Source: Scedosporium boydii (lineage: Eukaryota > Ascomycota > Sordariomycetes > Microascales > Microascaceae). From it: a stretch of DNA of 64,000 nt. The notes below the pieces were generated by a model. It saw only the letters and a list, made by a program, of their open reading frames with translations. It was not told the origin of the DNA and did no database searches. Positions 3,656 through 64,000 of this stretch are shown here, one piece after another; within the stretch, counting starts at the first letter, position 1, and each line of letters begins with the position of its first letter. The position numbers and the translations under genes are program-made. The stretch covers positions 62,001 to 126,000 of the forward strand of contig NJFT01000087.1 of assembly GCA_002221725.1 (NCBI GenBank). Direction: 5' to 3'.

Positions 3656-6600
3656 CTATATTGTCCTAGTACTAGTTTAGAAATAGGTTAGAGGCGGTTT
3701 GCTATATAAGGTTAATATAGAACACTAGGCTTTTTACTTTAGGGGGTATATCTAGTTTTATAATATATATACTAATAATTTCAATAATAGTATATTTGCT
3801 ATTAACTTAGTTAAGCTTCTTTATAGGCTACTCTATTATAAAGTTCTTTATATATAGCTAGACCTTATCTCCAACTTAGAACTAATTAGCTAGCTATCTC
3901 TATATGTTCGTATACTGTTCCTATTTTTCCTAGGCTATAGCTATAGTAGCTTAGGCGACCTCTTGTATATATTTCTAGTAGGTGATTAGGGCCTCTCTTT
4001 ATATTCTTATAGACAGCTCCTCTTACTTTACTATATCCTTAGGGTAGATATTGATTAGTAATATATTATACTTATAGGTTATAAAGAATAGGCTTATCTT
4101 GATTGATGCTGCTAGCTGGTTGTTAACTGCTAGTATGGCTATAGGTAGGAGGCTACTCTAGTTGTCCTAGAAATAGGCGGTGTACGCTTGGAGATAGCTT
4201 TCTAGTACTTAGTTTATCTATTCTATAGTGCTATTAGTTTCCGGGTAGTATATTATTGATAAATATTAGGTAATGTATAGGAGTTAGTAGGCTTATTCCT
4301 ATATTCTATTTATAAACTAGGTTCCTTGATTAGATACTATTATATATAGGGGGCTATAATAGTAGATAAGGTACTATATTAGTACTTCTACTATTACCTT
4401 AGTAGTTATCTTATATATTAGTTTAAAGATAATATTCTTACTTAGCTGATTAGTAATTACTAGGATTTTTATTACTGTGTGTAGTCTATTTGGAGGTAGA
4501 TCTGTAATAAAGTCTATTAATATCTTAGTCTAAGGGTGATTGGGCACTAGAAGGGGCTTAAGAACTCCCTTTTATATATCTTACTATATTACTCTTCTTC
4601 TATAGGACTTGCAATTCCTTATAAACTATTGTACGTTATTACTAAGCCCTAGCTATATATAGTTCCTTACTAATATTATCCTTATTACTTCCTAGCCTAG
4701 GTAGTCTGTGATTGGAGAGTTGTGGAAGTCTTATATTAGCTTAGTCTATAGTAGCTTATAGTTAGGAATTTAAATTTACCCCCTCTATCTAAGCTTATTT
4801 ACTTTATCTACTATATATTCTAATATTAAAAGTAGTATCTTAAGACTAGTAGGGAAGTATCTAAGGCCCTATACTATATACTTTCTAGTTATCTAATACT
4901 AGTTATTCTCTTATAGAACTATCTCCTATAATATTGTAAGTTTATTATTATAGAAGGAAGAGGTAAGTAGGTTAGTCTTAGCTGCTACTATATCTCCTAT
5001 ATAGTCTATATTGCACCTTAGCTCTTGGGTTGCTTAAGTGTCCCTGGAAGGAGTCCTTTTAAAGTTTCCTTAGGAGTCCTATATAGTAGTAGAGAGAGGA
5101 GAAGCTTAGATTACTTTCCTATCTTTCTATAGTATCTATATAGTCTACTCCTGCAGCTAGTTATTGTTAGCGTTCCTAGGTATATCTTATTCTCTCTATG
5201 ATAGGGTATCTAGTACTAGGGAGGCTTTCCCTAGCCTATATATTATTTTAAAATTATATTAGCTTATTGTCTCCTACTACTATATCTACCTTTTAGAAAG
5301 TTACTAGTAAGTAGTAAAGTATATAAGGTTCTTATAGTTAGTTAAGATAGTAAAGTATCTAATAGATCTTAGTTTACTTTACTATTGCTCTAAGTATTAT
5401 ATTATTACTAGTAGCTTCTTATTATAGATAGGGTAGTTTACTTTAGTAGGGAATATCTTCTTTAATATATAGGTAACTAGCTGGAGTCTGCTTATCTTAT
5501 CTTTTTATATTAAAGTTCCCCTTATAGTATATCCTAAGGAGTCTACTTCTACTACTATTTCCTTATTAGGGTTAAAGTATACTAGGATAGGGGCTCTAAT
5601 AAGTCTTAAATTTAGCTTATTAAATACTTACTAGTAGGCTTTAGTTTATATAAATATATAGTCCTTCTTTATTAGGTTATTTAATAGTTAGGTAATTATA
5701 GAAAAATTAGAGATGAACTTTCTATAGTAGTTAGTAAACTCTAGGAAGCCTCTAACTCCTTAGATTATAGTTAGTACTTCCTATTAGGCGATAGTAGTAA
5801 TCTTTTCTAGATCTATATAGATACCTTTCCTAGCTTTTATAATAAAGCTTAAATATTTAACTTCCTTAGTTTTAAACTTATATTTATCGATATTAATATA
5901 TAACCCTACTTTCTATAGCTTAGTAAGGACCTTCTATATCTTCTCCCTATAGTCTATAAGTATCTTTCTTAGGTAGATTAAGATATTATTAATGAAGGTA
6001 TATATAAAGTTGTCTAAGAACTCCTTTAGTATTAAGTTAATATACTATTAGAATATTACTAGGGCTCTAGTAAAGCTAAAGGGTATAATAAGCTACTTAT
6101 AAAGCCTATAGTATATTTAAAATACTATCTTCTACTTATTACTCTTCTTAATCCTTATCTTATAGAAGGTAGCTAAGATATTAAGCTTAGTAAACTACTT
6201 AGTACTAGAGAGCTATTAGAGAGTTTCTATAATTAAGGGAAGTAGGTAGTAATCCTTCTTAAAGATAGTATTTAGGCCTTAGTAGTTAATATAGAATTGT
6301 AGCCTACTACCTGGTTTCTATATAAAGAGTATAAGTATGGTAGCTAGTAAGTTACTTGTATATATAAAGTTCTTCTTAAGTAGCTTACTAAGGTTTTTCT
6401 ATAATATTAAAAGTTCTTTTTAAGATATATTATATAAGGGTTCTTATAAAATAGCTTTCTCTTTTTTTTCTAAGTCTCTCTTAATCTTGATAGTATAGTC
6501 TATTCCTAGGTAATAGGGTAGTAACTGGTTAGTATTAGACTTCTAAAATAGCTTTAAGAAGTTATAGTACTATAGTAGAAGCTTAGTCTTTAGGTTAGTA

Positions 6601-13375: not shown

Positions 13376-16300
13376 AACTACTAAAGTAATATAGCAAAAG
13401 AGGTCCCTATAAAAGCACCTATATCTTAATTAGATTTTATAGATATAGTATATACTAGAATAGATAATGGTCGCAACAGAACCTTAGCTATAAGCTTAGC
13501 TAGTAGAAAAAACTTAGAAAATAATTTTATTAAATATTTAATATATTAAGTTAAAGAGTTCTAAATAAAATATTAATTAAAGATAATTAATAGGTTTACT
13601 AAGGAAAATATCCTCTTCTATTAACTTATTATTACTTATTAGAAATACTAGTCCTAGACAATAGACCTCCTCAAGCAATCCTAATATATCTTATTAGTAT
13701 TATAAAGAATACTTAAAAGTTATATTAATAATAAAATAATAGTTAAGAGAAAATAGTTAATATTTTAGGGAATTTAAAAGGATTCTATTTAGCTTCTAGA
13801 ATATTTTCCGGAGGGATAGATTTAAGCTATCTTTATTACTATATTATAAAAATTTACTCTATATTAAAAATTAAGTATTACTATAGCTAATATATACTTA
13901 AACTACTAAATATATTACTTTTCTTCTTATAATTACTTTTAATAATTAGCTAGGAAACTAGTTAAACTAAGCTAAAAATGTAAGTTAATATTCGATAATT
14001 ATATCCTCTTTTTATTAAGTAGTAGTAGAGCTATTATATAGACTATTTATTAATTTTATTAACTAATAGAGGGGCTAGGCTACTATAGAGTAGGATTAAA
14101 TATAATTCAATTAATTTCTATAATCAGCTCTAAGTACTAAGTATAGCTACATAGAAGTACTTAAGTCCTACTAGATACTTTATCCCTTAGTAATAAGGTT
14201 ATAAATCTTTCTAATATCAATACTACCTCATTATTAGAGGCTTAGATTAGCCTAATCTTTCCAGTTAGACTAAAGAGCTATACCTCCTCTAACTTAGGTA
14301 CCAGTCCTATTTTATTTAAGTCTAGGTTTATATTAGCCTAATAATCTTACTAAAGCTTTAATAATAAAGCTTTATACTTAATAAGCTTTTATAGAAAACT
14401 AGAATTTTTACAAGAAGTTTTATTAATATAATTAAACAATAGATAGTCTAAAGACATAATAGGCTTATCAGTCTACTACTTTACTAATAAAGAAAAGAGA
14501 AAGAACTTTATTCTTTTCATTTAAACTCAGGGCCTAAAAGATAGAACCTAGGAGCTAAAAGGGGGCCAGGGGTAAGGGGACTAGGGGTAGGGGGGGGGGA
14601 TAAGGTAGAGCCCTTAATTACAAAATAGAAAAATAAAACCTGTAGGTAGTAATATAAAACCTGGGGGCAGTAAAATAGAGCCTGGGGGCAGCAAAATGAA
14701 GCCTAGGGGTAGCAAAATGGAACCTAGAGGTTAAAAATAAAACCTAGAGCCATAGAGCTCAGGAGCTATAAAATAGGCCGCAATATTTAGAAAAGGAATA
14801 ACCTAGCACTAAACCTTAAATTAATCCAGGAAACACGAATTAACAGTAATAGGTCTAGATAAAAAGAGCTTAATATATAATCTAAAAAGCTTTATTAACT
14901 TGAAGCTAACAAACTTAAAGTTATCTAGATATTATATTATAATAGACAAGGTCGCTAAGATATTATATAACTAGAATATATATTAACTAAAAAATAATAT
15001 CTAGAGAACCTAGTACCTATTTCTTCTAGAAAATTATATATTTAATTCCGAAAACAATCTTACTAGCTAGGCTAGTTTAGAATTTCCTACCTAGAAATAA
15101 GTAGAAAATTTCGATTAACTACTAGATCTTAAGCTTAATTAGGGCCTTAATTAAGCTATTATAGACAATTAAGCTATCTAGGTAGAACTCGACACTAGGG
15201 TCACAGTCTTAGAACTTTAAGAACAAGTTATAAAGCTTTAAAAGTACCTAGAGAATAAAGTATCTAAGTTTAAAGAGTACCTAGAGAATAAAGTATTTAA
15301 GCTTAAGAAGTATCTAGAGAGTAAAGTATCTAAGTTTAAAGAGCACCTTAAAAATAAAGTATTTAAGCTTAAAAAGTATCTAGAAAGCAAAGTATTTAAG
15401 TTTAAGGAGTACCTAGAGAATAAAGTATCTATGCTTAAAGAGGGTCTAAAAAGTAAAAGATTTGAAGATAAAGAAAGAGCTAGAAAATATTAAAATAAGT
15501 AAGTTAACTTTAGAGATTAGGGCTTCTAAAGTACTAATAGTAATAAATAGATTTAAGAAGATAAATACTAACTTTTATATTAATATAGATACTTATATAA
15601 AGATACTATAAGAATAGGTAAATGACTTTAAATAACTAGTTAATAATTTTATAACTAATTTATAAAGATAGTTAATAGCTGAGATAGCCCCGAGCAATAG
15701 GTATTACTATCTTACTCGTTTTTTAAGTATATACTATTAAATCTAAAATAAGATTTAATAAAATACGTTTTTCCGTACGCTCTAATTTTTATAATATAAT
15801 ACTTATATATTAATAATAAATTTACTTACTAGTGATAAACTTCTATAATATTACTATTACTATAATATACAGTAAAAGGTAAAATAAGTATTGTAGATTT
15901 TAATAGTTTATAATTTAAGTAGGGTTAGTTCCTAGAAATCTAGATTTCCGAATTTGCGCATTTATACAATAGATATATAAAGCCGTATAAACAAAGTAGC
16001 GGAAGCTAATTTTACTACCTGTAAATATCTTTCCCTCTTAAGTAAATACTTAGATTATTAACTAGTAACTCCTTTAGTATAATAATAGTCTACTATCTAA
16101 TATATAGCAATTGTAAGCAAAATAAAAGTAGATAAATCTTATCTTTAGGCTAGGATATTATAATCTCTTTTATAATTATTATTTTAAACTCTAATATCTA
16201 TAGGCCCTAAAGTATAGAGGGGAGTAAAGAGCACCTTATAACTAAGCTCCCCCTACATAACATAGCATCATAGTCTACTGAAAGTAGAATCTATATAAGG

Positions 16301-51477: not shown

Positions 51478-54400
51478 TAATTTCCCCTCTTCCTTAATCT
51501 TTATCTCTAAAAACCTATTAGTTCTCTCCTCTTTTTTTTAGTAAGTCTTTATACTATTATCTCCTTTTTATTATACTAACTTATATTTCTAAATCTTATT
51601 TTTGAATAATTTCCTTTAAAATAAACTATAAGTATTTTATTTAAGTAGTAGATAATATCCTTTCTTATTAATATCCTTTTAAGATATTAAAGTATACTAC
51701 TTACTTTAATTCCTATACCCTTTATAAATATATTATATAAAAAAAATAGTTTTATTATAACTATTATATCCTTCTTTATTATACTAATTATAATATTAAG
51801 AGAATTATAGATTTTACCTATTAGTCCTCTTTTCTTCTAGCTACTTTCTTTCTTACTAATATACTTCTTAGTTAACTACTTAAAATAAAAGTAGTTCTAT
51901 ATTATAAAAGAAGAATAAGAGGTAGAGGTAGTACTTTAGGCTACCTTATCTTATATTACGAAAATTTACTAGGAGAAGGAGCTTTATAAAAAGAAAATAT
52001 TAGAGATTATTAGGCTAGGGATAGAGTAGGTAGCTAAGGAGGATACTATAGAGAGTACTACTACCTCTATCCCTAGTTTAGAGATTAATTAGAGTTTATT
52101 AATAGATCTAATACTATTAGATCTTTTAGTTTTATTAAGTTTCTCTAGTAATGGTCTATAAGGAGTTATAGGCTTTCTATTAAGTATTTAATAGCTTTCT
52201 AAATATTATTACTTTCTTTATAGTTTTTCTATTTAACTAAATATTTAATAATATCTTTATTATTTTATAAGTTAGTAATTCTTTTTACTTTAAAGATTTC
52301 TTATTCTTTAATTTTAAATTAAACTAATTTCCCTAATAATATATTTTTATAAGCTAGTTTAAGTAGTACTATATAGAATACTAAATAGTTATCTATACCT
52401 TCTAGTAATTCTAGCTTATAGTTAACTTCTAAAATTTTCCTTTTAACTAAGAAGAGTCCTAATTTCTAATAATTAAGTTTATTACTTAATCTTATTATTT
52501 TAATTTAAAGGTCCTTAGTCCCTAGTTTCTTTTATAATAACTAGACCTTATTTTCCCTCTTAAAAATTAGTCTCTTAAGCTACTTATTATTAGTATAGTA
52601 CTTTATTTTCTACTAAATAAACTATAGTTCTTCTTTTAACTATCTATATAATTCCTTTATTTTATCTATTATAAGGATTACTTATTTTACTTATATTTTT
52701 ATACCTATAAGCTTAAATCCTATCTATAGTTTAATATTATAATTAGTATAGAATAGTAATATTTTAAAGCTTTCTAATATATTAATATTATAAGCTTTCT
52801 AGGCTAGAGGTAGTAGTAATACCTAGTTATCTTACCCTTAGTTAATATAGTACTATAAGTATATTTTAAGTATCTAGTTTATCTATTCTATTTACTTTTA
52901 TATTTCTAGATAATAGATAGTAGATAACTTATAGTTAATTCCTATTCTATCTAATAGGCTCTACTAGAAGTAAGAGTATAAGGTATAAGTAAGAGTATAC
53001 TATAGTACGGGACTTGCCGTCAGATGACTCAGCTGCGGAACCTGGTCGGAGCACGGTCGGAGACAAAAGAGGTTCCCGGACCGTAGAAGTCAGATAAGAG
53101 GGCAAGTTAAAGTTTTGATCATCAATTAAGTTTTAGTTGAGCATATACTTCTTAGTGACACTGGTCTTTCCTCGAGCTATATACAGTATATCCTTACAAG
53201 GAGATAAATACTTTACCTCTATCTAAGTTAATATTTTCTAATAGGTTATAGTTTACTACTATAGTTTATAGGAATAGCTTTATAAATTATAGTACTTTTA
53301 TAGATTTATTATAAAGTATAAAGTAGGTATACTTTATTAGCTTATTAATTACTACTATAATACTATTATATTTAACTCCTATAGCTAGATCTTTTAACTT
53401 TAATAATTTAATAATAAAATTAATAATAATCTTCTACTATAGTATTTTTAGTACTAGTATAGGCTATAGTTACCTATAAGGCTTATAAAGTTAGTTTTTA
53501 TTTTTTCTATACTAAGGGTATCTAGTTATAACCTTAGTAGTTACTTTTTTAAAATATAGGATATAATATCTCTTTAATACCTTCTTTATAGTTTTTATAA
53601 TTCCTAAGTACTTATTATATAGTACTTTATAGATTGCTTAGATAAACTTTTCTATTAGGTTTAAGGGCACTGTTGTTTATATTTGCTCTTAGGTTTCTAT
53701 TTAGTCTTATAACTTAAGGTTTATATAATAGTTCCTAATTTCTTTTATAATTAAGTTAATCTATTATATTTAGTAGCTTATAGCTAGCTATTATAAGTTT
53801 CCTTCCTTATTATAGTAAAGGAGGGTATTTATTTCTCTTAGTACTTTTTAAAAGTAGTCTAGCCTCCTATTAAGAATATCTACTCTTCTATTTTCTTTCC
53901 CTTTAATATATATAATTCTAAAATTATACTTAGATAGTTCTTTTACCTATTATACTTATTATCGATTAAGTTCCTTTATTATAGTAAACTCTATAAGGTT
54001 CTTACAGTTAAAATATATTATAATTAGGTATTTAGCTTTAGTAAGGTAGTATCTTTATTTTTTAAATACTTTAATAATAGTTATTAGTTCCTTATTAGGA
54101 ATAGTATAGTATAGTTTAAGTCTACTAAGTTTCTTTAATATAAATACTACTAGGTAGATTATACTATTCTTATTTTATTATCTTAATTATATACTTAGTC
54201 TATAATCTAATATATCTATTTCTATTTTAAAGGGTTTTAAGAGGTCTACCTAGTAGAATATAAGTTATTTATATATTAATTACTTAGCTTTTTAGAATAC
54301 TTCCTATTCTTCTAGTCCCTACTAGAATAGTTTATCTTTCTTAGTAAGTTCTATAAGAGCTTATATATAAGTACTATAGCCTTCTAGGAATTTCCTATAG

Positions 54401-54514
54401 AAGTTAAAAAATCTAAAAAATCTTTTAACTTCTATAATATTAGTTAGTACTAGCTATTTTAAAATAGCTCCAACCTTTAGTTCTTATATCTAGATTTTTC
54501 TAGGCTAGATTATA
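51478..54514 (-). pseudogene. RIP-degraded pol (integrase, RNase H, part of RT) of gypsy family A
   Basis: Minus-strand pol, reading leftward into the LTR at 51046. Near its right end (54330-54514) it reads KVGAILK, TNIIEVKRFFRFFNFYRKF and EGYS, the conserved stretch after the RT core. The sequence parallels 62134-64000. It contains the family C solo LTR (52977-53198). The RT frame is cut at a TA (54515-54516) by the Tc1/mariner-bounded insert and resumes at 61369. Confidence 0.65.
52977..53198 (+). repeat. Solo LTR (family C), second copy
   Basis: 222 bp, same ends (TATAAGGTATA, TATATCCTTACA) and core as 9288-9511. The flanks AAGAG (52972-52976) and AGGAG (53199-53203) are a duplication with one G/A difference that RIP would explain. 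It is inserted in gypsy A pol. Confidence 0.8.
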
Positions 54515-54516
54515 TA

Positions 54517-54607
54517 TAGTAAAAGATAAAATAGGTGTCGCTTTTTTTTAGAGTTAACTTTTTTAGTACTGCGAGGTAGAGCTATTTCCTAAATCCTGGA
54601 TGTAGGT
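54517..54607 (+). repeat. Left terminal inverted repeat of the Tc1-bounded insertion
   Basis: Pairs with 61276-61366; shared blocks include AGGTGTCGCT, GTTAACTTTTTTAGTA and TCCTGGATGTAG. The outermost bases TAGTAAAAG follow the TA target. Confidence 0.75.
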
Positions 54608-54752
54608 CACCTTGTACTAGAGAGGTACTAAGTGAACGAAACCTAACAAATTGTCCAAAAGTATTTTAAATCGTTTGCCCCCCCATTTTCCTTCCTCTCC
54701 ATCTTCATCTTCTTTTATCCCACTAGTAGTACGCTTTATATCAGTCGCAATC

Positions 54753-55730
54753 ATGGCGCCACCACTTGATCTAGCATAGCATCTCCTAATCAAAACCCTG
54801 CTTAAAAAAGGATTTAATACTAAGTTAATAGTTACAAAAGCGTCATGCAATATTCGCACTGTTTAGAGAATCTAAGAAAGACTACAGTGTAAGGTGCACT
54901 CCTGAAAAAAAGCTTGCCTTAGTCGCTGTAGCTGCATTATAGCACCTATGCAGGAAGCCCTCTATAATATACTAATTGAATGGCTAGGAATATATTAGTA
55001 CGAAATAGTAGACTTCTTCTATTATAAATTTGAGAAATAAGTATTAGAAAAAATAGTCAGCCAGACCCTTCGCTTAATTAGCTGGATGAGAAAAACGATC
55101 TATCGCATCATATAACAATAAGATGCTAACCTTCACGATCATTATCTACATAGGATATCATAGTATAAGTCCTACTAACTTATCTTTATTGATGAGTCTG
55201 GCTGTAATAGAAGAGCTAGGTACTAGTGATAGAGGTAGTCTCTAAAGGGGACCTACCTTATTAAGGTAATAAAGTTTAGTTATAGAAAAAGATAACACAT
55301 TCTTCTAGTATATATATAAGATAGTATCCTACTAAGGCGAGTATACTAGGGCTCAATAGACAGTAAATTGTTTAAGGACTTTATAGCCCAGCTACTACAT
55401 TACTGTAGCAGATATCTAGAGCTAAAATCTATAATTATAATAGATAATACTACTTAGTATTATTTAGAGAATATCTAGTAAATATACTAGGAGGTAGGAG
55501 TAGTTATAGAGTTCCTATTACTGTACTTACCTGACTTTAACCCTATTGAGGAGTACTTTGGGGTGTTAAAGTAATTTATTAAGAAAAAATGGTATGAGAA
55601 TAAAGATTTCATTGTAAGAGAGTTTTAGATGTTTCTGGAGTGGTGTGTCGATGTAGTGGGTGATAACGCGGACATGGCGGAGAGCTACTTTCGCTACGCG
55701 GGTATATATATTACGCCCATTCTAAAATAA
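54753..55730 (+). pseudogene. Tc1-type DD34E transposase, RIP-inactivated
   Basis: A single frame of 326 codons without indels, closed by TAA at 55728, but with about 20 internal TAG/TAA codons. The N-terminus MAPPLDLA...LLIKTLLKKGF and CNIRTV-stop-RI form the helix-turn-helix that binds the terminal repeats. The catalytic triad is visible: Asp in FIDESGCN (55191), Asp in IIIIDN (55443) and Glu in PDFNPIEEYF (55548), with 34 residues between the last two (DD34E, the Tc1 spacing). The C-terminus FLEWCVDVVGDNADMAESYF is typical of fungal members. The 5' flank (54608-54752) is GC-normal. Enzyme role: cut-and-paste transposition at TA sites. Inactive as it stands. Confidence 0.85.
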
Positions 55731-57009
55731 TATAGATACTTTAAAATAGATCTAAGATATAGAAATTCTCTCTCCTATACTTTAAAGGTCCTTTCCCTCT
55801 TGTAGGAATTTCTTGATGTTGCTTATAAATTGCAATATAATACCTGGTTTTACGCTACTTTTAACTATCAAATTTATAGTAATATTTAGGTACTGTAAAG
55901 TAGAATTTAGTTTAAGGAATTGATCTAATGTAAACTAATTTGTAAATTATAATGCCTCTCTCTATCTGTTGCTCTCGACTTGTTTTAGACTCTAGTTATA
56001 GTACTCCTCAAGTTTACCCTACCTATCCCTGTCTATATCTCGAAGGTCGATACTATAAGTCCTCTCGGCTATATAGTAGTAACTATACTAGGCTAAGATA
56101 TTTCTCTTCTGCTTCTAACTACTATCTAGAACCTCCTTTTTGATATTTGGTAGTATCTTAATTGTAATATCGACCTTATCTTCTATATCCCCTACTTATA
56201 TATTTCTTTAATATGATTGCTAATAGCCTCTAGATGTCTTAGTAGTAATCTATAGTAATTTCCCTATCTATCTAACTAGTAGTGTAGTCCTCCTTACTTA
56301 TAGGATTGGCGTTAGTAATAATAATACTTGTAGACCCTAGTCTAAAGACTAGCTATAGTATCTCTCTAGAGCCTCTAAGCTTTAGTTATACTTTTCTTTC
56401 CCTTCTTATTCTTTACTATTATAAAGTTACCTATAACTTATTTATAAATAAGCTTTATATTAAAGGTAATTTTTCTCTCCTTTATAAATAAGTTACTAAG
56501 ACCTTTAAGATAGTAATCTATAATATCCTAATCTATCTCCATTTTTAGGTATCGTTCTAATATACTATATTAGTAGCTTTTTTTAATAGATATCTTAATA
56601 ATTATTTCTTTATATATATAACTCTCTCCTAGGAATTTATTTTTATCTTTTAGTAAACTTTTAAGTTATACCTAGAACTTATCTTACTAGAAATTACCTA
56701 GAGCGAGGACGAGATTAAGGTAAGTGCCTAAACTAATATACCTAGCTCTAATATTCTTATACTAGGAGACCTTCTACTAAAAGTTATAAAAGATATATTC
56801 TAGAGTATTTTTATTATAATGCTTATCATGTTCCTAGTTATCTAGCTGGAGGAGCGGTAATAGGCTGTTACTATTTGGCTGATCGGGTTGTCTGGCGGCT
56901 GGGCTGGTAGCAAGCTAGACAGCTATACTACTACTAGAAGTTAGAATCTTAGGGGTTCTATAATTAAAATGATTATTATTAAATAAAGAAAAGTTAATAT
57001 TCTCTATAA
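55731..57009. other. Unassigned part of the insertion, left of the NLR gene
   Basis: 1.3 kb. Part is only moderately RIP-mutated and has Tyr/Ser/Leu-rich frames (55952-56143, 56306-56491) without motifs. A GC-normal patch lies at about 56830-56930. No second copy of the transposon end was found here, so the transposase has no nearby right end of its own. Confidence 0.4.
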
Positions 57010-57200
57010 TAATATACCTCGTAGTTAATAAATTTAAACTTTTAGGTATATATTATTAGTTTACTCGTCCTACCTACTAGGTATAGAAAGAGGACACGTG
57101 GCATTTTCTTTAACTATTTCTACGCGTTTCTAAGAGCTTCTATAGATCTATTATTTATTAATTATATAACTTGATTACTAATTAGTACTACTTACTAAGC
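57010..57200 (+). repeat. Inner inverted repeat, copy upstream of the NLR gene
   Basis: Matches the reverse complement of about 60855-61030. Shared blocks: AGGTATATATTATTAGTTTAC, TTTCTAAG-GCTTCTA-AGATC and TTAATTA-ATAAC-TGA, with C/T differences typical of RIP. It ends about 140 bp before the NLR start codon. Borders are approximate. Confidence 0.65.
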
Positions 57201-57342
57201 TATCTAATTGCGAGGCTAATTTTATCTTAGGAATATTGGTACTGGGAACGGACTATACTGTAATAGGTATTGCCCTTTTTAATAGACGCTTTGACTAGAG
57301 CTCGTTAGTGGTAAGGAGGTTGCGGCATCTGACTACCCTGTT

Positions 57343-60300
57343 ATGTCTTCTTCTAGTAAGAGAACCCGACACTAAACCATTCCTAGAGCGGACCATTTCC
57401 CTAAGCGACTAGTCATCTCTGTATAAAAGAATGCGACTCTTGATGCATGACGAGAATAGAGAGCTCCACTTAATAGGGGACCTATTTGACTACATCCCCC
57501 TATATATAATACTCTTATATACCTGGAGTTAAAATACGACCTAAGAGGTTACCTTCGAAGATATAAAAAAAGGTATAGGGAAAGATAAGGTAGGCTATAG
57601 TAAGATCGAATTCTATATAAAATAAGTAGAATAAGATAGGTTATAATACTTCTAAGTAGATACTTACTATATCGATAAGTTATCAAGCTATAAGCTCTAG
57701 GTATTAATAAATTCTATATTTTAATAGTATTATAATACTACTTAATATTATATATACTTATCTAATATCTTAAAAAATAATAATTAATCTGACTACTTAT
57801 AGAAAGTAGCTTTCTAAAATAGCTAATAGCTAACTAGGAGCTAGATAATCTAAGAGCTTCTTATTCTAGTATTAGTAAAGTTCTTCTTATAGGAGAGGAT
57901 ATAATTTAGTAATAAATAATCTCTTAAGTAGCTTATTTATAAATAAACTAGGATATTTATTTTAGTAATTTAAAAGGAAAAAGCCCTTTTTAAGTTTACA
58001 GTTAATAAGCAATTCTTATAAGCTAAGGTATATTATATTAAGCTTATAGAAGATAGGGTATACTATCTTTAAAGTATTTTTAGTATATTTATACTACTTC
58101 TCTATAGTAAGGGAAAAGATAATATACTATACTATCTTTAAAAAGAGATTAATAATACCCTAAAGTACTAAGGTTTATCCTTATACTTATACTCTTTAAA
58201 AATATAACCTACTAATAATAAATAAAATAGCTCTAGAAACTCTATACTTATCTATACCTAGATCGTAAAGACTAAAATCTACTATAAGCTAGAGAAATAT
58301 ATAAATAGTTTATAAACTATCCCCTCTTCTAAACTTAGCAGCGAAGTAGTATAGCTAGCTTACTCTAGGTATCTACTAACCCTAGATATAGGAAGTCGGT
58401 TCTAGCGAAGTACTTAGTAGATAAGGTAATACTAAGTACTATAATGAGAATGATATGCTACTTCTTCTTTAAGGAAGACTTTAAAGACTAGAGATCTTTA
58501 GTAACTATACTATACTTAATATTATATTAAATCTTTAACTAGTATCTAGCCTCTTTTTTAGCCTAGATCCTTAAGAAGTTTAAAGATAAAGGAGATAAAT
58601 TGCTAATATCTTTTAGTAATCTCTAGGATATTCTTATCTCTACTATAACTAGCTATAAGTATAGAGAGATTATCTATATCTTTAATACTCTAGATAAATA
58701 TAAGGCTCTAGAGTAAAATTAGGTAATTAATATTATTAGTAAGTTCTACTTAGATATAATAACTTATATTCTAGTAATAAAATTTATCTTAATTAGTTAG
58801 CCTTATTTAGATATTAAAGTAGGACTTTAAAAGTTAAAATATAAAATACCTATAATATACTTAAATAGAGAAAGCAAGGAGGAAGTAGGTAAAATTTCCT
58901 ATAAAATTAATATAGTTATTAAAAGTAGAATAATAGGAATAGATAGACTTAGTAAGAAGGAGTAGGCTATACTTAAGGAGGAGCTTACCTAGGTACTAAA
59001 CTATACTTACCTCTAGATATATCTTATCTTTAATAAGATTTAGAGAGCTATTCTCTTCTCTCTAATAAAAATTCAATTAGAGGTTTATAATATTCCCTAA
59101 ATAGTTAATAAGGTATATAAGAGGATCTTATTAAAAAGTTAAGATACTTACCTTACTAAAAGGCTTCTCTATATTATTATTACTATAGTAAGGCTACTTA
59201 CTTTATAGGAGATAGCTATTACTTTAATAATAGCTCCTATATATTATTTATTTAATAATCTAGAGCTAGTATTAGAGGTATAATTCTATAAAGATATTAG
59301 GAAGCTTTATAGACTTTTTATAGTAGTAGTTAATTTAAAAGTCTAGCTCCTCTATTAAATAGCCTGCGAATTTTTAGTCTACTAACTATTATTATAGTCC
59401 TTGCCCTCGCCTTTACCTAGTAGTATAGCTTTATAGTAGAAGTTTTTACTTTACCTAAAAGAATCTAATTATATCCTAGCTAAAATCTATCTACTATAGC
59501 TCTCCCTCTTAGATTTTAGCCTCTAAAGCCTTTAAGTAAGCCTAAAAAGGGAATAATATATTACTAAATATATACTTCTAGGGTATATAGCGTGTTTCTA
59601 GGCTAATTACTTTTATAATAGTAATTAGGAGAATTTAGATAGAATAGTAAAGAAGGCATTATCCTATTTTAATCTAAAATTACTAGCTTCTTTAACATAG
59701 TTTAAAATATATTAAACCCTTATAATAGAAGTAAGACTGCGGAGCTTTATGCTACTAGTGATTACGTACTATTTTAGGCTTAGCATTATAGTATAGCAGC
59801 TTCTCGAGGCCAGCGCCAATGTAAACGTGAAGGAGAACGATGGCAGGACGCCTCTTCACTACACTAGTAGGAACAGCCACGATGCTGTGGTGTAGCAGCT
59901 TCTCGAGGCCGGCGCCGATGCGAAGGCTAAGGCTAACTATAGCAGGACGCCCCTCCACCGGGCTTGTGAGAACGGCCACGATGCTGTAGTGCAGCAGCTT
60001 CTCGAGGCCGGCGCCGATGCTAACGCGAAGGCTAAGGATAACTATGGCAGGACGCCCCTCCACTGGGCTTCTGGGAACGGCCACGATGCTGTGGTGCAGC
60101 GGCTTCTTGAGGGTGGCGCCGATACAAATGCGAAGGCTAACGATGGCTGGATGCCCCTTCACTGGGCTGGTGAGAACGGCCACGATGCTGTGGTGCAGCA
60201 GCTTCTCGAGGCTGGTGCTGATGCGAATGCAGAGGCTAACTATGGCTGGACGCCCCTTCACTGGGCTTCTGGGAACGGCCATGATGCCGTGGTGCAGCGG

Positions 60301-60459
60301 CTTCTCGAGGCCGGTGCTGATGCGAATGCGAAGGCTAAGGATAACTATGGCAGGACACCCCTTCATTGGGCTTCTGAGAACGGCCATGATGCCGTGGTGC
60401 AGCAGCTTCTCGAGGCCGGCGCCGCTTCCGGAGCGGCCACGACAACTATAGCGAAGTAA
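57343..60459 (+). pseudogene. NOD-like receptor (NACHT-ankyrin), RIP-mutated
   Basis: One intronless frame of 1039 codons from ATG 57343 to TAA 60457. The ATG, the P-loop and the repeats are all in the same frame, so there is no net frameshift. N-terminal 340 residues: no domain recognised, many stops. NACHT: P-loop at 58387-58410 reads YRKSVLAK (from CGKSVLAK by G-to-A), Walker B-like IFNTLDKY at 58678-58701 (from DALDE-type), a sensor-like IS-stop-PYLDI (TSRPYPDI in relatives), and further NACHT-tail motifs to about 59360. From 59788 there are six 33-35-residue ankyrin repeats (GADANAKA, GRTPLHWAS, NGHDAVVQ) and a short cap. Fungal NLRs of this kind act in non-self recognition and incompatibility or immunity-like cell death. 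As it stands it is inactive. The ankyrin part keeps normal composition with only two TAG stops (one at 59893). Confidence 0.8.
59788..60440 (+). repeat. Tandem ankyrin-repeat array of the NLR
   Basis: Six complete units of 99 or 105 bp (the longer ones with the insertion KDN), nearly identical in DNA and protein, followed by a truncated unit. Variable residues cluster at few positions (for example NDGW, NYGW, NYGR after KA). Composition is GC-normal. The first two units carry a few C-to-T changes, including TAG for CAG. Confidence 0.88.
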
Positions 60460-60854
60460 TAAATGAACTTGGACACCTCAAGTAATTATATTATTTCTAT
60501 TCTCTTTGTAGAAGAACGTGTCTGGGGATATGTTACTTATATAGTTTGCCTTTTGATGGGGCGAATATTTATATAGAAGATGGATGATGCTGGACATAGT
60601 ATCTAGTAAGAACTTATGATATTCTACATATGTATCACCATCCGCTCAGACAGGGCGTACGGGCTTTGTTAGACCAACTGAACGCAAGCCACATTCGTAA
60701 TCAAGTATACGAACCTTGTACTCCGCAAATGGCGTCGCGTTAACGAAGCAGTCGGTATACAATGGCGGGTCATCTCGCCTCAATGAAATGGCGCGACCGA
60801 CTTGTACAGCATTTTACTTCTTCATTTTCTTCTCATAATACCGCAGAAGTAATT
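60460..60854 (+). other. 3' flank of the NLR gene, not RIP-mutated
   Basis: About 400 bp of normal composition after the NLR stop. Probably its 3'-UTR and terminator. No further gene seen. Confidence 0.5.
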
Positions 60855-61030
60855 TTTAATTTTATTCAGGTTATGTAATTAACGAACGAGGGATCTGTAG
60901 AAGCCCTTAGAAACCCATAGAAACTGTCCTCTTTTCGTATATATAGTACCTAGATAAGACAAGTAAACTAACAATATATACCTGAAACTAGATTTATCTA
61001 GATTACTATCTCTCCTACTATAATATGATT
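60855..61030 (-). repeat. Inner inverted repeat, copy downstream of the NLR gene
   Basis: Inverted partner of 57010-57200. It is less mutated than the upstream copy (retains CCTCGTTCGTTAATTACATAAC on the minus strand). A 63-codon minus-strand frame here (60879-61070) is not called as a gene. Confidence 0.65.
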
Positions 61031-61053
61031 CTCTCGATGGCGCATACACTATA

Positions 61054-61113
61054 GGAGGCTTCTGAAGCATTTTAATTAAAATACGCTATGCCGCATCTAG
61101 CTGCGGTGCCATG
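61054..61113 (-). pseudogene. Truncated start of a second Tc1-type transposase
   Basis: On the minus strand, ATG near 61111 reads MAPQLDAA-stop-RILIKMLQK. This matches the N-terminus of the transposase at 54753 (MAPPLDLA-stop-HLLIKTLLKK) in sequence and in position relative to the terminal repeat. Similarity ends after about 19 codons, where the inner inverted repeat zone begins. Confidence 0.65.
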
Positions 61114-61275
61114 ATCGGGGCTAGTGCATGGAGCGACTTTGGCGGGGATAGGAAGAGAGGGAGAAAAGGAAGGAAGAATAAGTAAGTGGGGTGGGCTTGT
61201 AGCGAGTTAAAAAAGATACTTTTTGTTAGGTAGCAGACACTATCAGTACTTCCTAATTATAAAAGGTATAAGATA

Positions 61276-61366
61276 ACCCTACAACTACATCCAGGAAACG
61301 GGCCTACCCCACTATACTAAAAAAGTTAACTAAAAATTTTAGCGACACCTATTTCACCTTTTACTA
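61276..61366 (-). repeat. Right terminal inverted repeat of the Tc1-bounded insertion
   Basis: Inverted partner of 54517-54607, less mutated (AAATAGGTGTCGCTAAAATT on the minus strand), followed outward by the TA at 61367-61368. Confidence 0.75.
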
Positions 61367-61368
61367 TA

Positions 61369-61702
61369 TCTAAAAAAAGTCTACTTACTATTTATAGAAT
61401 TTATACTTTACTAGTTCTACTAATAGCTTAGCTTCTTATAGTTTATATAAGACTTTATATATATATTCTTTATATTCTTTTAATACCTTTAAAAAGATAA
61501 AGATATTATCTAGGTATATAATTATAAAGTTATCTAGGTATTCTCGTAAAATATAGTTAATTATTATTTAGAAACTTATAAGGGTATTTATTAATCTAAA
61601 AGGTATAACTAAGTACTTAAAGTACCTAAGATATATTCTAAAAGTAGTCTTCTACTTATTACCTTCCTTAATATAGATTAAGTTATATACTTCCCTTAAT
61701 AT
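61369..61702 (-). pseudogene. Reverse-transcriptase core fragment of gypsy family A
   Basis: On the minus strand around 61480-61560 it reads LDNFIIIYLDNIFIFLK, the YxDD-containing core of the RT (YLDN for YLDD), followed by EYKEYIYKVLYKL and VDFL. This is the upstream continuation of the pol fragment ending at 54514. It is cut at 61703 by an LTR of the same family. Confidence 0.7.
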
Positions 61703-62133
61703 TACACTCCTAATACTTCGGGTTCTAGCTAATCAATAGAATAAGCAAGTACTAGGATAGTAGGGGCCCTGTTTAGGAATAAGTAAAGCAGTTAAGTAGT
61801 ATTTACAATAATAAATATTGAGAATATATATATAAGTATAGAATATAGTTATTACTTATATTAACTACTAAAGAGTCTAGAAGATAACTAGACTAGTAGG
61901 AAATATTATAGCCTTATATAGACACTCCTCCTATCTATCTTTAGTATATAGTTACTCTTTATATATCTACCTAATTGTTTTTCTAGTAATTACTTAATTA
62001 CTCTCCTTATATATAGTTAGTTGCTTCTAATATAACTACCTAGTTATACTACTAAGAAGCAACTATGTAACCCTATTCTAATTCTACTATTCTTTACTAC
62101 TCTAGGTGGCCTAAATTATAGCTAGGTTATAAT
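61703..62133 (-). repeat. LTR family A, minus-strand 3' LTR (second element)
   Basis: 431 bp, parallel to 51046-51477 and slightly less mutated. It is followed on the right by pol 3' sequence of the same family, so it is the 3' LTR of another leftward element that continues beyond the window. The sequences directly at its two sides do not match as a duplication, in line with a nested or rearranged state. Confidence 0.75.
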
Positions 62134-64000
62134 ATAATTTCCCCTCTCCCTTAGTCTTTATTTCTAAAGACTTATTAGCTCTTACTTCCTTTCTTAGTAA
62201 GTTTTTATATTATTATCTCTCTTACTATACTAACTTATATTTCTAAGTCTTATTCCTTAGTAGTTTCCTTTAAGGTAAACTGTAAGTACCTTACTTAAGT
62301 AGTAGATAATATCCTTTCTTATTAGTATCCTTTTAAGATACTAAAGTATATAGCTTACTTTAATTTCTATACTTCTTATAAGTATATTATATAAAAAGGG
62401 TAGTTTTACTATAACTACTATATCCTTCTTTATTATACTAATTATAATATTAGGGGAATTATATATTTTACCTATTAGTCTTTTTTTCCTAGCTACTCTC
62501 TTCCTTATTAATATACCTCCTAGTTAACTACCTAAAGTAAGAGTAGTCCTATATTATAAAGGAGAAATAAGAGGTAGAGATAGTATTTTAGGCTACCTTA
62601 TCTTATATTATAAAAATTTATTAAGAGAAGGAGCTTTATAAAAAGAGGATATTAAAGATTATTAGGCTAGGGATAGAGTAGGTGGCTGAGGAGGATACTA
62701 TAGAGAGCGCTACTGCCTCTATCTCTAGTTTAGAGATTAACTAGAGTTTACTAATAGATCTAGTACTACTAGATCCCTTAATTTTATTAAGTTCCTCTAG
62801 TAGTAGTCTATAAGGAGCTGTAGGCTCCCTACTAAATGTTTAATAGGTTCCTAAATATTATTACTTTCTTTATAGTTTTTCTATTTAACTAAATATTTAA
62901 TAGTTCTTTTATTATTTTATAAGTTAGTGATTTTTTCTATTTTAAAAATTTTTTATTTTTTAGTTTTAAGCTAAATTAATTTTCTTAGTAATATATTCTT
63001 ATAGGCTAGTTTAAGTAGTACTATATAAAATATTAGGTAGTTATCTATATTTTCTAGTAATTTTAGCTTATAGTTAACTTTTAAAACTTTTTTTTTTACT
63101 AGGAAAGGTCTTAATTTCTAGTAATCGAGTTTATTACTTAATCTTATTATTTTAATTTAGGGGTCCTTAGTTTCTAGTTTCTTCTATAGTAATTAGACTT
63201 TACTTCCCCTCTTAGGGGTTAGTCCTTTAAGCTACTTACTATTAGTATAGTATTTTATTCTTTACTAAATAAACTATAGTTTTTTTTTTAACTACTTATA
63301 TAGTTCCTTTATCTTATAATATTATAAGGATCGCTTATTCTACCTATATTTTTATACTTATAGGCTCGAATCTAGTTTATAGTTTAATACTATAGTTAAT
63401 ATAGAATAGTAATATTTTAAGGCTTTTTAATATTGAGATAGGAAATAAAGTAACTAGTGTGAGAAGAGTTTAGTTCTTATGTAGAGTGGAAGAGCGGCAG
63501 CGGAAGAACTTTCTTCCTTACCTAGGGGGGGAGTATAGTTATTTCTTTTCTTTTCTTCCTTCTCATCGGAGAGGGACAAGTTCTTCTTCTTTAAGTGCTT
63601 TAATTTAGTTCTTTAGATAGTTTAATTGACTTATTTATTTAGGTCTTTTACTGTTCTCTATAATTGGTGACGTCCAGCTACCTATTCCAGCTCGACATAT
63701 GTTATAGAGTGTCCCTTTGGGCACTGATATAGTTCATGAAGTTTCCCCTATTTGGAGGCTTCCTTTTCACTTATTTCTATATTATTCCCATTAATCAATA
63801 GTTCCGACGACTATTCTATTCCTGCTAGGAGTTCTGTAGTAGCTTCTTGTAGGAAATACTACAAACCATTGACCGAACTATTTTCTTTTCTGCGGTGTGC
63901 GGGCAGGCTGCACTGCTCCGTTATAATATATTAATATTATAGGCTTTCTAGGCTAAGGGTAGTAGTAATATCTAATTATCTTATTTTTAGTTAATATAGT
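62134..64000 (-). pseudogene. RIP-degraded 3' pol region of a second gypsy family A element
   Basis: Parallel to 51478-52880 throughout; the two run side by side with mainly transition differences. It is interrupted by the family D solo LTR (63434-63925), after which the same sequence resumes (63926-64000 matches from about 52790). The frame contains stops everywhere. Confidence 0.65.
63434..63925 (+). repeat. Solo LTR-like repeat (family D), third copy
   Basis: 492 bp from TGAGATAGG to CCGTTATA (CA end altered), flanked by ATAT/ATAT (63430-63433, 63926-63929). The unoccupied site can be seen in the parallel element near 52790. Orientation is the same as 26911-27362 and opposite to 3135-3655. 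Confidence 0.75.

Follow-up and report, generated by a model that had tools for sequence, protein, structure and literature searches.

The stretch of DNA analysed here (the window) comprises 64,000 nucleotides of Scedosporium boydii, namely positions 62001-126000 of contig C87 in the 42.9 Mb genome of 442 contigs, which was the one genome available. Within the window, a gypsy-type retroelement is interrupted by an insert of 6850 bp (54517-61366, counted from the TA), which carries a Tc1-type transposase frame and an NLR gene. The insert is probably a composite transposon of the Tc1/mariner type and of the captured-gene kind, and the data are best explained by a low-copy, gene-carrying Tc1/mariner family that moved at least the NLR of the window. 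A previous reading, made from the sequence alone, had proposed a captured-gene or composite transposon instead of a plain Tc1. This proposal is supported by an empty target site, by two 5'-type ends and by further pairs of related ends around genes, including another NLR. The anatomy described in the sequence-only reading was borne out as well, while repeat-induced point mutation (RIP), a HET domain and a second inverted repeat were absent from it. The RIP signature and the HET and NLR genes are in keeping with a filamentous ascomycete.

Ends, target site and empty site

The outer arms at 54510-54590 and 61293-61373 are complementary by 79% over 81 nt including the flanking TA, and the terminal inverted repeats themselves (54517-54590 against 61366-61293) agree by 78% over 74 bp, with similarity extending to about 100 bp. 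This is in line with the inverted ends of about 90 bp noticed before. The alignment of the left and right ends reached a score of 72, compared to a maximum of 28 in 1000 shuffled comparisons; these shuffled scores and the backward controls of the pattern scans described below rule out a chance resemblance of the ends.

The insert is flanked by TA on both sides (54515-54516 and 61367-61368). An uninterrupted copy of the gypsy element is located on the same contig, about 4 kb beyond the right end (stretch L049:1509-1849, corresponding to C87:127509-127849). When the flanks of the insert were joined minus one TA (342 bases), they matched this continuous copy with 88% over 342 columns, including a one-base gap within the run of A that adjoins the site. 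The empty site comprises a single TA, the filled site two. Thus, both the TA on either side and the rejoining of the outer gypsy frame across the insert, as described before, could be confirmed. From the empty site with its single TA it follows that both outer ends came in together by a single transposition with TA duplication, i.e. the window copy once moved as a 6.85-kb unit. The empty site alone is no proof that this jump already included the NLR.

Two diverged 5' ends

The left frame (54753-55730) matched DDE_3 of Pfam with E=7e-13, and counting from the translation showed the second D and the E to be 34 residues apart, i.e. a DD34E transposase. It had been described as complete; the DDE_3 frame with its D-34-E spacing stands, whereas 23 internal stops in 325 codons contradict completeness, and an intact transposase in the window was rejected on these grounds. 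Together, the TA duplication, the DD34E transposase (as a pseudogene) and the terminal inverted repeats correspond to the features of a Tc1/mariner element. A tyrosine-recombinase captain (DUF3435) gave no Pfam match in the frames scanned, which were a subset of the frames of the insert. A pattern search for relatives of the transposase in viral contigs gave 12 matching stretches, none of which was confirmed.

Behind the right end, a second transposase start in the opposite orientation was found, as had been noted before. Read in reverse it gives MAPQLDAA*RILIKMLQK, compared to MAPPLDLA*HLLIKTLLKK at the left. A comparison of both starts over 19 codons showed five identical codons, seven synonymous differences and seven amino-acid changes, with 12 of the 22 differing bases at third positions. 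The transposase-start end of a related locus on contig C33 scored 99 with the left and 94 with the right end of the window, so that each window end scores higher with this 5' end than with the other window end (72), while the other C33 end reached only 26 and 36 (shuffled maximum 28). To judge from these comparisons, the right end is a second, diverged 5' end in reverse and not the 3' end of a Tc1, which makes the unit composite. Two different coding elements seem to be present, although 19 codons are a small sample. The usual fungal Tc1 has a size of 1.3-2 kb and a single transposase between a 5' and a 3' end. The insert, with 6850 bp and two 5'-type ends, does not show this layout, and a plain Tc1 of 1.3-2 kb was rejected for its wrong right end.

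Another explanation would be a rearrangement after the insertion, in which an inversion or deletion within a once plain Tc1 produced a false composite. The region is old, degraded by RIP and rich in repeats, which would be compatible with such an event. Nonetheless, the target rejoins exactly, and the 22 base differences and seven amino-acid changes in 19 codons show that the right 5' end belongs to another element than the left one and did not arise from it by inversion. A rearrangement is therefore considered very improbable.

The unit probably arose as follows. An ordinary NLR gene of the HET-NACHT-ankyrin type would have been flanked by two related but diverged elements of the Tc1 type, arranged tail to tail, and a Tc1-type transposase would have treated their outer 5' ends as the borders of a single unit. 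Everything between them, presumably including the NLR, then moved into a TA of the gypsy element. Of the right-hand element, only its end and the start of its transposase are left, and RIP mutated the unit after the jump.

The NLR of the window and its damage by RIP

The frame 57502-60480 matched NPHP3_N (E=2.4e-8) and Ank_2 (E=1.6e-50) of Pfam. A HET domain, beginning at the start codon at 57431, was recognised by 37% identity over 198 columns to a paralogue (L043, E=1e-31); Pfam alone missed it in this RIP-mutated copy. Thus, the gene comprises an N-terminal HET domain, a NACHT-type NTPase (NPHP3_N) and C-terminal ankyrin repeats, as is characteristic of fungal NLRs. The same HET-NACHT-ankyrin type was found in the paralogues on C133 (HET in a neighbouring frame) and C69, and over 806 columns of the NACHT-ankyrin part the window NLR is 46% identical to the paralogue on C133.

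The gene had been taken for a full-length NACHT-ankyrin gene. Both domains are indeed there, but the gene is not intact: 23 stops lie in the 192 codons of the HET part (57431-58006) and 39 in the 511 codons of the NACHT part (58222-59754), and an intact NLR in the window was rejected by these counts. The ankyrin array shows two internal stops within 59791-60459. Since the HET and NACHT parts lie in different frames, the single-frame count of 73 stops over the NLR is off-frame for the HET part.

Downstream of the gene, the region 60477-60863 scored 112-126 against the paralogous loci on C108, C38 and C10, compared to 42-62 for one shuffle each. As far as the start region and this native 3' flank indicate, the NLR came with its own gene borders. 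On C108, a stretch standing alone (L039:2931-3107) matches the ankyrin end of the window NLR together with its 3' flank and is apparently a gene remnant.

In steps of 1000 bases from 54001 to 60000, the AT-rich surroundings showed a TpA/ApT ratio of 1.4-1.8 and a (CpA+TpG)/(ApC+GpT) ratio of 0.09-0.62 with its minimum at 58001-59000. Such dinucleotide ratios are the usual mark of RIP. The comparison with the paralogue on C133 pointed in the same direction: at 57652-57801, 23 C-to-T and 25 G-to-A differences stand against 11 others, and at 60220-60375 in the ankyrin array nine C-to-T and four G-to-A against 18 others. Both genes inside the unit, transposase and NLR, are dead and marked by RIP.

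The damage is unevenly distributed. The RIP index was 0.16 for the HET-NACHT part and 1.51 for the ankyrin array, and 1.19 and 0.49 for the first and second half of the transposase, respectively. RIP is thus almost absent from the ankyrin array (59755-60477), whereas the adjoining HET-NACHT part is saturated. Heavy damage of the HET-NACHT part next to lightly damaged parts suggests that this stretch was present in more than one copy at the time. Alternatively, the damage may originate from RIP leaking in from the gypsy flanks.

The inner inverted repeat

A second inverted repeat (57028-57177 and 60863-60997) brackets the NLR with 70% identity between its arms and a score of 146, while other parts of the window gave background maxima of 120 and 95. 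It forms the basis of the main rival explanation, a nested insertion, in which a Tc1-type element entered the gypsy element first and the NLR was inserted later, with the inner repeat as the ends of another element. This order of events would fit the position of the repeat, and in the genome search with the right arm (E<=1) only the arm itself was found. Since even the left arm was missed, this search was not sensitive. Among 16 other stretches, the best inner-repeat score was 56 (C53; shuffled maximum 39), followed by 53 (C38) and 48 (C108), which is not convincing. Judged by eye, no target duplication is seen at the inner arms, the borders of which are fuzzy. Furthermore, the arms lie downstream of both 5' ends and in the same order, as expected of two relatives arranged tail to tail. 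Finally, a nested insertion leaves the 5'-type outer right end and the gene-enclosing ends at other loci unexplained. We therefore regard it as rather unlikely.

Further loci with the same end family

Genome searches scored the best candidates only, so that all copy numbers are lower bounds. A 26-base pattern of the ends, with up to three mismatches, had 11 matches in the genome and none in the backward control, and the same numbers (11 and 0) resulted from a second form of the pattern. A scan with an inner motif gave five matches, both ends at C105 included, again compared to none in the control. Altogether, the three genome scans and a local scan yielded at least 13 ends at eight loci, and a DNA search with the 126-bp end from C365 found seven places, all of them within these loci. 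Matches of the local scan with 7-8 mismatches (near 4900 of L040 and near 4250 of the joined stretch of C80) were taken as noise. When the left 244 bp were searched against the genome, the window copy and its own right end were the only matches; since it missed the relative on C33, which showed 73% in another comparison, this result is a lower bound.

Five pairs of ends are inverted and 2.0-6.9 kb apart: those of the window (6850 bp), C365 (2754 bp), C33 (2680 bp), C80 (1978 bp) and C105 (3708 bp). TA was found at both ends in four of the five pairs, and at the left end of C105 it is replaced by CT (TA if one base is missing). Each pair encloses a different open reading frame (ORF), in two of the five a NACHT-type NLR. 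The cargo of C365, the ends of which are 91% alike over 123 bp, is an intact SET-domain protein of 595 amino acids (E=1.5e-13); C33 contains a GRF-like zinc ribbon (E=4.9e-15) beside a broken transposase, and C80 an ORF of 353 amino acids. C105 encloses an intact NLR of 844 amino acids (coding C105:126389-123855) with NPHP3_N (5.1e-35), a winged-helix domain and ankyrins. With the transposase as query, the genome search matched the window and C33 only, and none was found at C365, C80 and C105. Short copies (1.3-2 kb) with the transposase next to both ends, which the sequence-only reading had named as evidence to the contrary, were not found; the sole other transposase copy found, on C33, lies in the 2.68-kb unit with the zinc ribbon.

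The same end family surrounds other single genes at other loci, so that carrying host genes seems habitual for the family rather than accidental to the window copy. Independent insertions, by which family ends landed beside genes by chance and never moved together, would be in agreement with the low copy number, with three loci of a single end and with the divergence between the ends at C105, C33 and C80. However, they do not explain the exact empty site of the window copy or the 91% similarity of the ends at C365, and by a rough estimate 13 ends in 42.9 Mb would be very unlikely to form, by chance, five inverted pairs spaced by less than 7 kb. There is hence little probability left for this explanation.

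At the three single-end loci, C53, C68 and C420, no partner was found within 6.0, 5.6 and 5.6 kb inward, respectively. The ORF beside the C420 end matched DUF7587 (E=1.4e-8), and the one beside the C68 end had no match in the domain scan. Just inside the C53 end lies a HET gene (C53:176755-180763, covered by L040:188-2763 and L065; E=1.3e-29) with a weak TPR match.

It is tempting to assume that immune or self-recognition genes are the preferred cargo of this Tc1/mariner-type family, which would move NLRs singly within, and perhaps between, genomes. Pointers in this direction are the two different NLRs between paired ends and the HET gene beside a third, single end. The NLR of the window was itself the reason for choosing this stretch, which leaves C105 as the one independent case of NLR cargo, and such a preference is at present doubtful.

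Origin of the cargo genes and weighing of the evidence

The best paralogue of the SET gene in the genome showed 45% identity and that of the window NLR, which is RIP-affected, 46%. For the C105 NLR, the best paralogues reached 52-56% over most of the length, and the one on C134 67% over the last 198 residues. The C105 NLR is not among the 14 matches of the window NLR and is only about 26% identical to the window-NLR paralogues C38:74648 and C69, which indicates a different lineage. Eight stretches of 6-9 kb with related NLR genes (L041-L048) contained no family end by the pattern and one weak BLAST match (E=0.02), which fits genes of the donor family. Copies of the NLR region in ordinary positions without these ends had been named as a finding that would speak against the transposon; this applies to paralogues (L041-L048), not to copies.

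The C105 NLR (C105:123855-126389; L063:2256-4038 with L059:1-752) reads through a GT...AG intron site that is kept in the paralogue on C38. Several other paralogues are split at the same residue, about 435 (by coordinates only), and the more distant C231 is not. A possible reason would be that the C105 NLR was taken up as a spliced copy, for which a single intron is thin evidence.

A number of observations weigh against a gene-carrying family. An empty site was found for the window copy only, i.e. for one of the five pairs, and this copy is dead. Three of the eight loci have a single end. The left end of C105 shows five pattern mismatches as well as CT for TA, and both C105 ends resemble the C53 end more closely (scores of 64 and 100) than they resemble one another (51). 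Only 24 bp are common to the two ends of C33; at C80 the alignment of the ends spans 22 bp with a score of 29, about the shuffled maximum, and the C80 cargo matched nothing but DUF7730, a domain of unknown function, and this below the cut-off. The inner repeat of the window could mark a separate insertion. Moreover, no close or recent donor, only paralogues, was seen in this genome for the SET gene, the C105 NLR and the window NLR; the captures may be old, the donors may have been moved or lost, or the genes may stem from elsewhere. Donors may also lie in other strains.

Features of the insert

The features of the insert and its flanks are listed in Table 1. Outside of this region, the window shows normal composition and open frames at about 19-33 kb and 36-39 kb, and a tandem array with a period of 33 bp lies in RIP-mutated DNA at 15233-15486. 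A partly self-complementary, AT-rich repeat occurs both in the interior of the unit (56391-56670) and in the flank of the C53 end (C53:181018-181387).

Table 1. Coordinates of the features in and around the insert (window positions).
Feature	Position	Strand	Evidence
Interrupted gypsy-type retroelement, left flank with target TA (54515-54516)	53000-54516	-	Matches uninterrupted copy L049; RIP index 0.2
Left terminal inverted repeat	54517-54590	+	78% to 61366-61293; fits family pattern
Tc1-type transposase pseudogene, DD34E	54753-55730	+	DDE_3, E=7e-13; 23 internal stops in 325 codons
AT-rich stretch; 56391-56670 resembles C53:181018-181387	55731-57020		Six-frame Pfam scan of 55700-57600 without match
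Inner inverted repeat, left arm	57028-57177	+	70% to 60997-60863; score 146
HET-NACHT-ankyrin NLR pseudogene	57431-60459	+	HET to L043; NPHP3_N, Ank_2; 46% over 806 columns to C133; stop counts
Ankyrin array, largely spared by RIP	59755-60459	+	GC 0.58 over 59755-60477; RIP index 1.51
Native 3' flank of the NLR gene, common to paralogues	60466-60582	+	75% to C38; 60424-60570 81% to C108
Inner inverted repeat, right arm	60863-60997	-	Arm alignment; genome search (E<=1) finds only itself
Start of second, diverged transposase (about 18 codons, then similarity ends)	61059-61112	-	Codon-by-codon comparison
Right terminal inverted repeat	61293-61366	-	Complementarity, inverted-repeat alignment, family pattern, end scores
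Second target TA (61367-61368) and right flank of gypsy-type element	61367-62800	-	Gypsy copy match, empty site, RIP index

Comparison with known systems and significance

The closest known system is ToxTA (formerly ToxhAT) of fungal wheat pathogens, described as a likely non-autonomous Tc1/mariner element of 14 kb with 74-bp inverted ends and TA duplication, which holds a Patatin-TPR gene placed by the authors in the NLR family (PMC6737239, PMC12506042). Long inverted ends, TA duplication and several kb of cellular cargo are common to both. In contrast, ToxTA is, by its published description, a single conserved element whose cargo is the same in three species and which rides in Starships, whereas the family found here is low-copy with diverged ends, a different ORF per pair and NACHT-type NLRs. 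In Pyrenophora tritici-repentis, a transduplication by Tc1/mariner is reported for one family of 46 members with the same ORF (PMC3538342); a foreign ORF between fungal Tc1/mariner ends is shared with this case, while here the copy number is low and the cargo differs between units.

Pack-Mariner or Pack-TYPE elements of plants are reported to contain coding DNA between mariner ends, with joint mobilisation of two neighbouring insertions as the proposed origin (PMC8903248). Coding DNA between mariner ends is also found in the window, C365, C33 and C105, and the two 5' ends of the window unit agree with an origin by joint mobilisation. Contrary to the plant examples described there, which comprise short gene pieces with donors of 93-98% identity (PMC8903248), whole genes are present here and no close donor was seen in the genome (45%, 52-67% by exon and 46%). 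Pack-TYPE elements are defined as non-autonomous and without a transposase, and the window unit keeps a dead transposase frame. Starships, likewise, are fungal mobile DNA with NLR accessory genes, but according to the accounts cited they are far larger and have a tyrosine-recombinase captain (PMC12506042, PMC9594970), unlike the DDE-type ends, the TA and the 6.85 kb observed here.

The open-access literature searched, most subscription papers lying outside of it, yielded no description of a Tc1/mariner unit that contains a NACHT-type NLR, the nearest being ToxTA with its Patatin-TPR gene. What seems to be new is a fungal family of low copy number whose five pairs of ends each enclose a different ORF, in two of the five a NACHT-type NLR, with an empty site for one of these.

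For the gain, loss and movement of fungal NLRs, small units that carry one NLR and move by cut-and-paste would offer, in addition to the giant Starships, a route that is simple and can be tested. A survey from 2025 is reported to have noted that a conflict between RIP and the duplication of NLRs is to be expected, and to have found only weak correlations (PMC12258605). The window copy illustrates the cost of such a route, as the moved NLR was destroyed by RIP, while the NLR copy at C105 is intact. The cargo of such a unit would be traceable by its empty sites.

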